DNA from: a bacterium
GTDB taxonomy: Bacteria > Vulcanimicrobiota > JABDET01
Assembly: GCA_021817145.1 (NCBI GenBank)
Contig: JAKAVV010000003.1
Span: 1 to 64,000, forward strand
Direction: 5' to 3'
DNA: 64,000 nt
The position numbers and the translations under genes are program-made. Below the pieces are notes generated by a model that was not told the origin of the DNA, searched no databases, and worked only from the letters and a program-made list of their open reading frames with translations. Numbering within the stretch: position 1 is the stretch's first letter; every line of letters begins with the position of its first letter. Below are positions 28,430 to 31,978 of the stretch, piece by piece.

Positions 28430-29008
28430 TTAAGCGTGAAAATCATTCGTGCGATCATAAGCCGCAGCTTTCTTTAATTTTTTTTCACAGTCCGCGCAAA
28501 ATAGAGATGATTTTTGATCAATGTCATAAATCGTGCTAGAATAATAGAGGACGCAGTGGCGGTTGTAACAGTGTTTTAATCCTAAGATATGAGATAATTG
28601 ATGGACCGCTTCCTTTAATAGTCTATCAAAAAGGGGATTCTCTCCATTTTGATAAGCGTAAAATTCGGGGCTAAGACGATAATAACTTGTCAAAGCGATT
28701 TTTTCATTCAGATTAGCATCCCCAAAAACAGTGTTTAAAGAGCTGCTGTACAAATCAAGTCGAGTAATCCCCAGCGAATATTTAACATCCTCATGGAAAG
28801 ACAACTTCGCTTTATTCATTAAAGCAGGGGCAAAATACTGTTTCTTAACCGCGTTAAAGGCGCTGGAAGGGGGCGGGTAATTTGAAGAAACCAGAAATTT
28901 ATACAAAAACCTTTCTTCTAAGCAGCAAATAAGCCTGTAAAGAAGCCGTAAATCCACTTCTCCAATTGTGAAGACACCGATTTTCATATCATTCACCTTT
29001 TGCGCCAA
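28430..29008 (-). CDS. Archaemetzincin-like protein with Gln in place of the catalytic Glu
   Basis: 192 residues. The C-terminal part matches archaemetzincin: zinc motif HQLSHILGLKHC, then CVLYYSSTIYDIDQK and LFCADCEKKL with the second zinc-binding cysteines. The three His and four Cys are intact, but the base catalyst of HExxH is Gln (codon CAA). In metzincins this change abolishes peptidase activity while keeping the fold. N-terminal KIGVFTIGEVD and LGITRLDLYSSSLNTVFGDAN also fit. It lies 70 bases downstream of the two ATP-grasp genes on the same strand and may bind, rather than cut, the modified product. Confidence 0.8.
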   Translation of the reverse strand: MAQKVNDMKIGVFTIGEVDLRLLYRLICCLEERFLYKFLVSSNYPPPSSAFNAVKKQYFAPALMNKAKLSFHEDVKYSLGITRLDLYSSSLNTVFGDANLNEKIALTSYYRLSPEFYAYQNGENPLFDRLLKEAVHQLSHILGLKHCYNRHCVLYYSSTIYDIDQKSSLFCADCEKKLKKAAAYDRTNDFHA

Positions 29009-29078
29009 TATTTAATGGTCAAAAGTTCTTGTTAAACATCATGAAATCCTCTCTATTTTCTTGCGTTTTATAGATTTT

Positions 29079-30014
29079 TTATTTATTTCCTTGATTTAAA
29101 AGATGACATAAAGCGTCTGTAATCGGCTCTGGGGAAGCCAATCCAAAATTAGTTTTTCTTTCATAATAGATGTAAACAGGAGATGGATTCGCTTCAAAAC
29201 AGTAAAATTCTCCTTCAGGAGTCATTCTTAGATCAATTCCTGCGAGCGGTAAATTGAGTCCGTATGCCACTGTAAAACAGGCTTGAGCGATCTCTTCGGG
29301 TAGATCAAATCTTTTCATGCTGGTGGTACGGTCATAACGATAGTCGGACTCCTGCGCGCAAATTTCTGAAGCAAAAATTTCCTGACCGACCACATGAACT
29401 CTAATATCAATTCCATCAATACACTCTTGGACTTGAACAGGCGAGTAGCGCAGTGTATCAAGACGCTCAAAATCTTCTTCTTTCATTTTTCTCACAATGG
29501 ACCTAACAGAGCTGATGGATTTGTAGATTACCTCTCCTTTGTGATTTTCATAGAATTCTTTAATGGCTTCTGGATCATTGGTAACCAGTGTTTTAGGAAC
29601 CTGAAGTCCAAGAGCCTGGATTAAGCGAATTTGATTTGGTTTAGAAGCATTCGAACGGGAGGCAGAAGGACGGTTTAAGACCAGAAAATTCCCATATTCC
29701 AACAGCCAGGTTAATGTGATTAAACATTCAGAATTGACGAAATCAATCTCTTTTTGTTCGTACTGGTCATATACTTCAAAATAGCCGACCCCTGGCCTAG
29801 CATAGATGCTGCGAATTTCATTAAACAAAATTTTTTTTGAGTTTTCCAGAAGGAAATATCCTGTTATTTCATCCCCTTTTGCTTCCATGATGATTTTGAT
29901 GGTGTTTGGAATATCTGACTGCTCAATCATAATGGCATCCATCCCTCTGGAAATAAGGGATTGATAGAGATGGGTTACAATGGTTTCTTGATTTGATCCC
30001 AGAACAAGAATCAT
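29079..30014 (-). CDS. ATP-grasp ligase, graspetide-maturase (MvdC/MvdD)-like, probably active
   Basis: 311 residues. The N-terminal half (about 1-130) resembles the pre-ATP-grasp domain of RiPP maturases, with LFNEIRSIYARPGVG and the NRPSASRSNASKPNQIRL stretch before the ATP-grasp core. The core has VIYKSISS (ATP-binding Lys), VQECIDGIDIRVHVVG and the metal triad in GIDLRMTPEGEFYCFEANPS (Asp, Glu, Asn). Known relatives join carboxylates of Glu/Asp to Ser/Thr or Lys side chains in peptides; glutathione-synthase/RimK-type ligases are the alternative. Its ATG overlaps the stop of the next-upstream ATP-grasp gene. Confidence 0.75.
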   Translation of the reverse strand: MILVLGSNQETIVTHLYQSLISRGMDAIMIEQSDIPNTIKIIMEAKGDEITGYFLLENSKKILFNEIRSIYARPGVGYFEVYDQYEQKEIDFVNSECLITLTWLLEYGNFLVLNRPSASRSNASKPNQIRLIQALGLQVPKTLVTNDPEAIKEFYENHKGEVIYKSISSVRSIVRKMKEEDFERLDTLRYSPVQVQECIDGIDIRVHVVGQEIFASEICAQESDYRYDRTTSMKRFDLPEEIAQACFTVAYGLNLPLAGIDLRMTPEGEFYCFEANPSPVYIYYERKTNFGLASPEPITDALCHLLNQGNK

Positions 30015-30955
30015 GATATAGGGTTTCCTTGTTCTAAAAGGTTTAAAATTGATCTTCCGATGAGTGAATCCCCGTGTTCATTCGTAAAAGTTAAAACAGG
30101 CAGACTGACAAAAGGGTAAACTCCAAGCCCTTGACACTTCCCATCAGGGGTTATTCGAAGTCTGATTTCTAGAAGGGGAATATTGATATCTCGCGCCAAT
30201 TGGAGAGACTGGAATTTCCAATTTTCTTCTAAAGAATAGAGGGACAGGTTAACAGTCCCAGTTTGACTCAGAGATTCTTCAAATCCGAAAGTTTCTTTTC
30301 CGACAGTAACTAGACGGATTACTTTTCCTGGGGAGTATTCTTCAAAATGGACAGGGCAGTAAGAGATTTTTTCGATTCTCTGGAGATCTTGATTTGTCAT
30401 TTTTTTAAACATTGCATCTGGGTCCTTAACATGTTTATAAATAACCTGACCCTTCCAGGTTTGATAAAATTCTTTGGCTTTTTCGGGATCGCTTGTAATT
30501 AAAAAATGCGGGGAGTCAAATCCGTATTTTTGAAGCAGGAGAACAGCCCCTCCTCTTCCCATAGAAAGGTCAATTTTAGGGAGAGGATTTAAAACAGAGC
30601 ATTGATGAGATAAGCTGGCAGCAGCAGCCAGAAGAGCTGCCCAACCTTCTGTTTGAACATATTGTTTGTCTTTCTCTGAAAGCTCGGTGAATCCATAAGC
30701 TGATACAAACTGATTTTCCATGCAGAGTCCGCTGATCTCACTGAAATTCAAACCCGACCCATCAGGCAGGATAAAACTTCCTTCTATCTGATTCTGATTT
30801 ATTGAAAAAGTGAGTTTGGTTTGAGTTAAAAAAGTCTCCTGCTGGATGAAAACAACCGGCTTAGAACTGCGGCTTGACAAATACTGCAGCAAATATGAAA
30901 TCACCGGGTTAGCCGGTGATCCATAAACAAGAATGGAGGATTTTATCGAACCCAT
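30011..30955 (-). CDS. Second ATP-grasp protein with degenerate metal site (pseudo-ligase)
   Basis: 314 residues, aligning end to end with the downstream ATP-grasp protein. Conserved: the FSEISG strand, VIYKHVKD, FEEYSPGKVIRLVTVG. In the metal loop, EIRLRITPDGKCQGLGVYPF replaces GIDLRMTPEGEFYCFEANPS: Asp to Arg, Glu to Gly, Asn to Tyr. It is therefore probably unable to bind the catalytic magnesium and may act as a substrate-binding or allosteric partner. It begins 31 bases after the Lys/Glu-repeat gene. Confidence 0.7.
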   Translation of the reverse strand: MGSIKSSILVYGSPANPVISYLLQYLSSRSSKPVVFIQQETFLTQTKLTFSINQNQIEGSFILPDGSGLNFSEISGLCMENQFVSAYGFTELSEKDKQYVQTEGWAALLAAAASLSHQCSVLNPLPKIDLSMGRGGAVLLLQKYGFDSPHFLITSDPEKAKEFYQTWKGQVIYKHVKDPDAMFKKMTNQDLQRIEKISYCPVHFEEYSPGKVIRLVTVGKETFGFEESLSQTGTVNLSLYSLEENWKFQSLQLARDINIPLLEIRLRITPDGKCQGLGVYPFVSLPVLTFTNEHGDSLIGRSILNLLEQGNPIS

Positions 30956-30986
30956 TTTAATCTTTGTTCAGAAGTCAATATTCTGT

Positions 30987-31889
30987 TTAAAAGAATCGGG
31001 ATGAACCTCCTAAACCTCCTAAATTGGGCTGCATTTGACCCCCTAATAATCCGGAGAAAGGACTGCACATACATCCAAAAGGTGAAGAGAAAGACATCAT
31101 CATCATCATGAGCATCATCATCATTTCCATCAGCATATAAAGTTCCATGGGATTCATTCCGCCGCAGCCAGGGGGAGGTCCTTCAGTTTCTTCTTTTCCC
31201 TCTTTGCCCTCTTTGGCTCCCCCCCCTTCTTTTGTTCCACAAGTATCTTTTTCTTTAGCGTTTTCTTTCCCCTCTTTTCCTTCTTTTCCAGTCTCCTTGA
31301 TTTCTTTCTCTTTTTCTTCTTTCCCCTCACCTTTAATGCCAACCCCGTCTTTTTCCTTTATGTCTTCTTTACCTTCTTTCCCCTCTTTAATACCGCCGTG
31401 TTCTTTAATGTCTTCTTTCCCCTCTTTGCCAAACTCTTTTACTCCTTCTTTTCCGCTTTCTTTCAGGGCGCTGTGCTCTTTTATGGCTTCTTTTCCGCCT
31501 TCTTTAATGCCACTGTGTTCTTTTATTCCTTCTTTTGCAGACTCTTTTACATCTTCTTTCCCTTCTTTGCACTCCTTGCTTTCTTTAGATTCCTTCCCTT
31601 CTTTTGCATCCTCTTTAACCGCTTCTTTCCCCCCTTCTTTCCCTTCTTTTTCTTTGACATCATGTTTTTCAGAAGCGGTCATTTTTTCATCAAGCCGCAT
31701 TTTTTCAATGGTTTCCTGTTTTTCAGCCCCTTTTTCCCCGCTTTTTTCGAGCAATTTCTCTTGATTTTGTTTTTCTTCCAGTTTTTCTACCCCTTTTTCT
31801 GAGGCGCTCATTTTTTCTGAGCCTTTAATCGGACCTGTTTTGATTAAGTCAGGCCTTAATTCTGATGTGATAAATAATCCTGTTGTCAT
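30987..31889 (-). CDS. Lys/Glu/Gly-repeat protein with poly-Met, Cys-containing tail (candidate ATP-grasp substrate)
   Basis: About 300 residues; the ATG at 31889 follows a GGGGGTG RBS, with a GTG three codons upstream as alternative. Residues about 1-25 form a non-repetitive leader (TTGLFITSELRPDLIKTGPI). Residues about 25-240 are almost only Lys, Glu and Gly with a few Ser, Ala, Ile, Val and His, in units such as GKEAIKEHSALKESG and KEGKEDIKEHGGIKEG. The C-terminus has PPPGCGGMNPMELYM, a run of about 17 residues that are mostly Met, PFGCMCSPFSG and a Gly-rich end. Placed first in the operon before two ATP-grasp genes, it is a candidate precursor whose Lys and Glu side chains are joined. A plain disordered stress or metal-binding protein is the alternative. 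Confidence 0.7.
   Translation of the reverse strand: MTTGLFITSELRPDLIKTGPIKGSEKMSASEKGVEKLEEKQNQEKLLEKSGEKGAEKQETIEKMRLDEKMTASEKHDVKEKEGKEGGKEAVKEDAKEGKESKESKECKEGKEDVKESAKEGIKEHSGIKEGGKEAIKEHSALKESGKEGVKEFGKEGKEDIKEHGGIKEGKEGKEDIKEKDGVGIKGEGKEEKEKEIKETGKEGKEGKENAKEKDTCGTKEGGGAKEGKEGKEETEGPPPGCGGMNPMELYMLMEMMMMLMMMMMSFSSPFGCMCSPFSGLLGGQMQPNLGGLGGSSRFF
31200..31680 (-). repeat. Degenerate repeats encoding KEG units
   Basis: The plus strand is a run of TTCTTT, CCCTCTTT and TTCCTTC variants at irregular spacing, reflecting AAA/GAA/GGA codons. Unit lengths vary between about 9 and 45 bases, so slippage and unequal exchange are likely. The strand bias (pyrimidines on plus) is extreme. Confidence 0.7.
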
Positions 31890-31978
31890 GTTCAACACCC
31901 CCGCTTTTTTTATTTTATCAAAGCAGACGGTGATTTTTCTATCACAAAATAAATTGTTTTGTTACAAAACAGTTAAAG

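Follow-up and report, generated by a model that had tools for sequence, protein, structure and literature searches.

Four minus-strand genes encode a repeat protein, two ATP-grasp-fold proteins and an archaemetzincin-like protein

The window analysed here is a stretch of 64,000 nucleotides (contig JAKAVV010000003.1, assembly GCA_021817145.1) from the 2.66 Mb genome of a member of the Candidatus Eremiobacterota. Four of its genes, all on the minus strand and ordered P0004, P0003, P0002 and P0001, encode a Lys/Glu/Gly-repeat protein, two proteins of the ATP-grasp fold and an archaemetzincin-like protein. The initial annotation had described them as lying on one strand with gaps of 31 and 70 bases and a four-base overlap, and the coordinates agree exactly: P0004 ends at 30987, 31 bases from the start of P0003 at 30955; P0003 ends at 30011 and overlaps the start of P0002 (30014) by four bases; and P0002 ends at 29079, 70 bases from the start of the archaemetzincin open reading frame at 29008. 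A comparison genome of the same genus, G001, retains the whole operon, with identities of 84% for P0002, 73% for P0003 and 84% for P0001.

P0004 (30987..31889) most likely starts at the ATG at 31889, three codons past a GTG at 31898, which gives a protein of 300 amino acids beginning MTTGLFITSELRP. Its G001 orthologue has a matching leader, repeat and C-terminus. Near the N-terminus lies a candidate recognition tag, FITSELRPDL (residues 6–15, 31845..31874), a motif also present in other Eremiobacterota precursors. The Lys/Glu/Gly-rich repeat region (residues 19–234, 31188..31835) is the predicted ligase substrate, as judged by its composition and spacing statistics. It had been described as about 215 residues of nearly pure Lys, Glu and Gly; a repeat rich in these residues is indeed present, but it is less pure than that, since the three make up 67% of residues 19–234 (55 Glu, 54 Lys and 35 Gly of 216) and 80% of the purest 50-residue stretch. 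The charged residues of the repeat region, counted over 217 residues, are 54 Lys, 1 Arg, 56 Glu and 8 Asp, with EK-type spacing in the N-terminal part followed by KE(G)-type spacing. The C-terminal segment (30990..31187) holds the Cys/Gly/Met-rich stretch MELYMLMEMMMMLMMMMM and ends in SSRFF, similar to the [SA]xRF[FL]-like motif of other Eremiobacterota precursors. Met-rich stretches recur in repeat-like Eremiobacterota proteins: besides the one in this segment, RIMMMQMLQMMESMLQMF is found at L040:4993-5859 and SMMMSFMPGGG at L021:6952-7638 (L numbers denote loci from the searches described below).

A predicted graspetide-type synthetase and its predicted pseudoenzyme partner

Among hidden Markov models (HMMs), P0002 (29079..30014, 311 amino acids) matched TIGR04187 best (1.3e-39), followed by MvdD (1.7e-29), MvdC (1.5e-28) and RimK (1.6e-14), all under their curated cut-offs. 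The TIGR04187 (TgmB) match reached 136.3 bits against a cut-off of 350, and the RimK match, below the graspetide models, 53.9 bits against a cut-off of 143.4. A profile search of the PDB with 21 relatives returned PsnB (7drm, 1e-45), then CdnC, MdnC, AMdnB, MdnB and PruB, with RimK at 6e-12. The AlphaFold2 model of P0002 (predicted local distance difference test score, pLDDT, 89.6) was matched by Foldseek to MdnC, CdnC, PsnB and AMdnB, and then to RimK. P0002 retains all 12 of the catalytic or substrate sites that were checked, including Lys165, the DxR substrate-recognition motif (D203-x-R205), D261, R263, E274 and N276, so that its sequence has intact ATP and Mg sites. The 21 aligned synthetases retain the checked Lys, Gln, Arg, Asp, Glu and Asn sites, with exceptions in three (Asn-x-Arg for DxR; Lys or Ile for R263). 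In a maximum-likelihood tree these synthetases form one clade (support 100/98), outside which lie TgmB, MvdC, MvdD and two other graspetide-like enzymes. By HMM, profile, fold and tree, P0002 groups with graspetide maturases and not with RimK or glutathione synthase, as the initial annotation had anticipated for its ATP-grasp proteins. Judged by sequence, P0002 is the catalytic subunit and an enzyme of a known kind, the graspetide synthetases.

P0003 (30011..30955, 314 amino acids) has the same fold: its AlphaFold2 model (pLDDT 92.3) is matched best to MdnC, AMdnB and CdnC by Foldseek, and a profile search matches it to PsnB (1e-25). At the positions equivalent to those of P0002, however, it carries Gly and Tyr for the Mg ligands E274 and N276, Val for D203 and Arg for D261, and the ExN and Asp-x-Arg residues are thus lost. 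Because the Mg and activation residues are gone, P0003 is predicted to be a pseudoenzyme. The ATP-grasp pair of the initial annotation therefore stands as two ATP-grasp folds, but only P0002 looks catalytically competent, and the two competent ligases of a microviridin-type system are not present.

Conservation of the dead partner was followed in a set of related loci, the best 80 of 191 matches obtained with two peptide patterns. All 20 partners compared are without most of the checked catalytic sites, and the partners of about 235 residues found in other phyla additionally lack the ATP-binding hairpin. A partner-family profile built from non-Eremiobacterota partners found a member in 78 of the 80 loci, nearly always as the gene immediately preceding the synthetase; a few Eremiobacterota loci gave the synthetase itself as the profile match, and the partner there was found by BLAST. 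No Pfam or NCBIfam name applied to the family among about ten members tested, and a plasmid search with one partner sequence gave no match. The conservation of a catalytically dead partner suggests a heterodimer, in which P0003 probably helps P0002 to bind its substrate.

Related loci place a tagged, Lys/acid-rich protein beside the enzyme pair

A contig scan with the single P0002 sequence returned no match; an alignment-based scan did yield relatives. The active and dead ATP-grasp genes adjoin in nearly all of the 80 loci, which come from about ten phyla and from archaea. Relatives also regularly adjoin a Lys/Glu-rich protein, and the co-occurrence expected by the initial annotation was thus borne out: with one criterion for both sides, 46 of 72 loci have a K+E/D-rich stretch upstream of the synthetase and 4 of 72 have one downstream, and a looser threshold gives 64 upstream versus 9 downstream. 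Since these stretches are concentrated upstream and the same gene set is found in G001, the operon is not a chance arrangement. A search for the tag as F[IV]xxxxRP covered about 132,000 upstream residues and found it in 64 of 72 loci. The downstream side (258,000 residues) had it in 11 of 80 loci, several of these being true precursors (L048, L059, L071 and L087), and the opposite strand in 8. Five graspetide-type loci outside the clade were checked and none had a comparable K/E-rich stretch; the non-clade loci gave one chance-like match to the tag (L154).

The tag has the consensus FIxxExRPxx, and the 10-mer FITSELRPDL recurs unchanged in Roseovarius (L098). P0004 is one of a far larger group of predicted substrates that have this tag in common. 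The synthetases thus have beside them, as expected of graspetides, a precursor with a conserved recognition sequence (FIxxExRP), which may serve as the docking site of the enzyme. Beyond the window, seven Eremiobacterota loci encode a Lys/Glu-repeat precursor, and an eighth locus is truncated at the edge of its contig. Where the start lies on the contig, these proteins open with a DLFIxxxFRP-type tag (LFITSELRP in the sister species); they also contain an extended EK array (EKxxxEK), and their C-terminus bears an xRF[FL] motif. The neighbour in other phyla is often a larger protein with subtilase, M6 protease, kelch, B-lectin or Ig-like domains, in which a Lys+Glu/Asp-rich stretch precedes a FIxxExRPxhG tag at the C-terminus. 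Substrates of the clade reach about 900 residues, and Pfam and NCBIfam offer no name for several tagged proteins. At L071 and L087 the precursor lies downstream and has an N-terminal tag and a KD/KE array. Because the tag is N-terminal on basal branches (Eremiobacterota, L059 and L071/L087) and C-terminal on the derived branch, it seems to have moved in the course of evolution. Counts of further tagged genes in eight Eremiobacterota genomes were near those of a reversed-pattern control, and no second substrate is therefore claimed for them.

Substrates favour lysine over arginine and balance it with acidic residues

We compared Lys and Arg in genomes of more than 60% guanine plus cytosine (GC), using the most charged 30-residue window, chosen by total charge regardless of Lys or Arg. 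In substrates K/(K+R) was 0.88 and Lys exceeded Arg in 33 of 33; in other genes the values were 0.14 and 4 of 92. Since Lys and not Arg is used in the substrates of these GC-rich genomes, positive charge alone is not enough to explain them. The ratio of Lys to Glu+Asp in substrates was 0.94, or about 1:1. Glu or Asp at position +4 from Lys was enriched 1.51-fold (z 10.6) in non-Eremiobacterota and 3.01-fold (z 18.9) in other Eremiobacterota, z-scores that describe a pattern and not independent events, the shuffles leaving repeat structure in place. KxxxD is the proven spacing of the corallotide isopeptides (PMC13097080). The choice of Lys over Arg, the near 1:1 supply of Lys and acid and the +4 enrichment matching KxxxD together favour Lys–Glu/Asp amides, and side-chain amide formation between Glu or Asp and Lys is the chemistry that these substrates would be expected to undergo.

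Proposed cross-linking mechanism and competing explanations

The placement of the enzyme and the Lys/Glu-rich neighbours of its relatives support the graspetide-type interpretation first put forward for this locus. We think it probable that the tagged substrate and the two-subunit ATP-grasp ligase constitute a graspetide-type cross-linking system that forms Glu/Asp–Lys amides within one chain and so makes a stiff rod. FITSELRPDL near the N-terminus of P0004 would recruit the P0002/P0003 enzyme, which would phosphorylate Glu (or Asp) side-chain carboxylates; the activated carboxylates would then react with Lys side chains close by. The repeat would in this way acquire many short intrachain amide loops and become a stiff, protease-resistant rod or stalk. 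In the relatives, tag and ligase would act on folded proteins (subtilases, M6 proteases, kelch, lectin and Ig-like proteins, among others), at their Lys/Glu(Asp)-rich tails. With somewhat less than even confidence, we extend this to a general tail cross-linking machine of bacteria and archaea, in which a FIxxExRPDL tag, movable between termini, would guide an active/dead heterodimer to the stalks of unrelated proteins and turn them into stiffened, protease-proof tethers.

Several observations weigh against the cross-linking proposal or limit its basis. Choosing the best matches to two peptide patterns makes the sample of loci lean to close relatives, contig ends cut some of these loci, and cyanobacteria are over-represented. 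Eight of the 72 loci have no upstream tag, about one third of the 72 miss the stricter K/E-rich threshold, and the K/E stretches are very short on tagged folded proteins of some cyanobacteria and on some kelch proteins. The repeat of P0004 itself shows no enrichment at +4 (1.17-fold, z 0.9). It has the repeated acceptors (Asp/Glu) and donors (Ser/Thr/Lys) of a graspetide core, irregularly spaced, with enrichment at +1 and +5 (1.57-fold at +5), which makes any assignment of ring size or connectivity tentative in this protein. Nostoc-type cores such as KELKIEVKEFEK likewise space Lys and Glu five apart. No universal Lys–Glu spacing was found across the substrates; +4 is the best shared non-adjacent spacing, and the window favours +5.

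Four other explanations were considered. A RimK-like ligase would add free amino acids such as Glu to Glu or Lys side chains or to the C-terminus, giving branches and not cross-links. The ATP-grasp fold is common to both enzyme kinds, weaker RimK matches are present, and branching on Glu or Lys would account for Lys/Glu-rich tails as well. We nevertheless regard this as unlikely, since RimK ranks far below the graspetide synthetases in the HMM, profile and fold searches, and glutamylation requires one type of carboxylate or amine, not Lys and acid at about 1:1 with Arg avoided.

The graspetides characterised so far are mostly Ser/Thr esters, and K/E periodicities of three to five residues also fit single alpha-helices. 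The Lys/Glu stretch might thus be a mere charged, flexible or helical spacer, with another part of the protein modified (by Ser/Thr esters, or in a folded domain). A spacer selected for charge gives no reason for the exclusion of Arg in GC-rich genomes, though, and repeats with Gly, Pro or Asp (KDTKDGKDG, KEGKEGKE), which make poor helices, are found in many of the stretches. The folded domains are, moreover, mutually unrelated and yet have the K/E stretch and the tag in common. We judge a simple spacer to be quite improbable.

We give similarly little credence to links between chains, which would yield a covalent polymer, fibre or shell; a rigid fibre or shell had been envisaged in the initial annotation. 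The very long uniform repeat of the Eremiobacterota precursors would suit such a product, and corallotide fragments aggregate (PMC13097080); however, known graspetide links are intrachain, and the K/E stretch sits on enzymes (proteases) in relatives, which argues against obligatory polymers. Finally, a fortuitous neighbourhood with a functionless, slippage-derived low-complexity repeat could be argued from its codons (51 AAA and 45 GAA) and from its unequal length in the window genome and G001, but is effectively refuted by the recurrence across phyla of independent Lys/Glu-rich sequences, including Asp-type and high-GC ones, beside these enzymes with a conserved tag. Intrachain Glu/Asp–Lys cross-linking thus remains our preferred explanation.

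An archaemetzincin-like protein predicted to be non-proteolytic

The fourth gene, P0001 (28430..29008; true start TTG, GTG or ATG), matches Pfam PF07998 (4e-18), comes close to the cut-off of NCBIfam NF033823 (143.8 bits; cut-off 145) and aligns to solved archaemetzincin structures (4e-21). In place of the M54 active-protease motif HExxHxxGxxH it has HQLSHILGLKH, and its G001 counterpart HQLSHAIGLKH; the CxM motif has Leu for Met in both genus members. As HQxxH replaces HExxH and the catalytic Glu is lost, P0001 is probably not a protease. A function as leader peptidase was set aside on this ground, and a zinc-bound binding protein appears more likely. No archaemetzincin homologue was found outside the genus among the loci searched. 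HMM searches of the four operon genes identified neither a 2-oxoglutarate oxygenase nor a beta-lactamase-like gene, the two kinds expected in a corallotide (group 15) cluster; flanking genes were read as translations only.

Comparison with known graspetide systems

Among the closest described parallels is corallotide (graspetide group 15; Corallococcus CorA/CorB/CorC; PMC13097080). Its precursor is likewise large with repeated Lys-to-acid motifs, and its ATP-grasp synthetase forms Lys–Asp isopeptide bonds at KxxxD and requires a partner protein; the product is collagen-like and aggregation-prone. The partner CorC, however, is a 2-oxoglutarate oxygenase and not a dead ATP-grasp protein, the precursor has five spaced motifs where P0004 has a dense K/E array, and corallotide is restricted to one genus. 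The microviridin enzymes MvdC/MvdD (MdnB/MdnC) share the fold and the arrangement of two adjoining ATP-grasp genes beside a precursor, and one of the two makes a Lys–Glu amide; unlike the pair described here, both are active, their precursor is short, and both MvdC and MvdD fall outside this clade in the tree. TgmB/GRASP_SAV_5884 (TIGR04187) gives the best HMM match, and PsnB of plesiocin (7drm) is the best solved structure by profile. P0002 nevertheless scores far under the TIGR04187 cut-off, TgmA precursors are short, and none of the TgmB loci looked at had a dead partner gene.

A 2026 RODEO survey (PMC13097080) mentions long precursors with repeated linkage residues in groups 34 and 35, an additional protein matching no HMM in group 34, and large precursors from diverse taxa in group 41. 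Its main text treats these uncharacterised groups in passing and describes neither a tag nor a pseudoenzyme, nor any K/E rule. Part of this clade may belong to group 34, and the long-repeat groups 34, 35 and 41 may overlap with it. In the literature searched, which comprised papers without their supplements, we found no description of the tag or of the active/dead pair. The kind of enzyme is known; what those texts do not report is a dead partner combined with a movable tag and with Lys/acid stalks on large proteins.

Further arrangements at related loci

At L101:1637-5174 (Nitrospira), two tagged Lys/Glu-rich proteins stand in tandem, and at L082:3512-5159 (a Pseudonocardiales genome) a second one lies on the opposite strand; one enzyme pair may serve several substrates at these loci. 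Plasmid pPCS109 of Candidatus Megaera polyxenophila (AP017967.1, L149:3373-6696) carries a clade synthetase and a small FISFDLRPDL neighbour. The enzyme falls inside the clade on a long branch, which makes its placement unsure, and two genes at this locus, annotated as isopenicillin N synthase-type dioxygenases, recall the corallotide oxygenase. In Nostoc sp. UCD121 (L048:3567-4925) the synthetase frame runs on into a tagged segment with a C-terminal domain that, by reading, is putatively PqqD-like, and a Nitrospirales genome (L059:6944-7426) has a tagged protein, also PqqD-like by reading, as a separate downstream gene. At the Eremiobacterota loci L041:2287-3170 and L038:2319-5595, the synthetase is directly followed by prepilin/pseudopilin-like genes (GFSLVE/GFNLIE motifs). 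As a lead only, the cross-linked protein may be related to a pilus or type II secretion-like system.

The window genome has a third, distant ATP-grasp gene, on either side of which the opposite strand encodes two paralogous Asn/Gln/Gly-rich proteins beginning NPWDEFGPNSWVSPVMPFN (L021:5138-7638; G000 contig C32, about 181137-183637). Together they are possibly a separate peptide-modifying system.

Implications

The 2022 graspetide census limited precursor candidates to proteins of 150 residues or less (PMC8939145), so most substrates of this clade would be passed over by it. An engineered leader-to-follower swap works in ThfB (PMC13003496), and a tag found at either terminus would be its natural counterpart. 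If the proposal is correct, the short portable tag and the dead-enzyme partner might find a second use in stiffening or protecting engineered proteins. Graspetides have been known as a class of small cyclic peptides; if tail cross-linking is real, their chemistry would be a protein-modification system too. In about ten phyla, proteases, lectins and structural proteins would then be given long cross-linked Lys/Glu segments. The loci point to a widespread and mostly undescribed system, one that probably links lysine to glutamate side chains.

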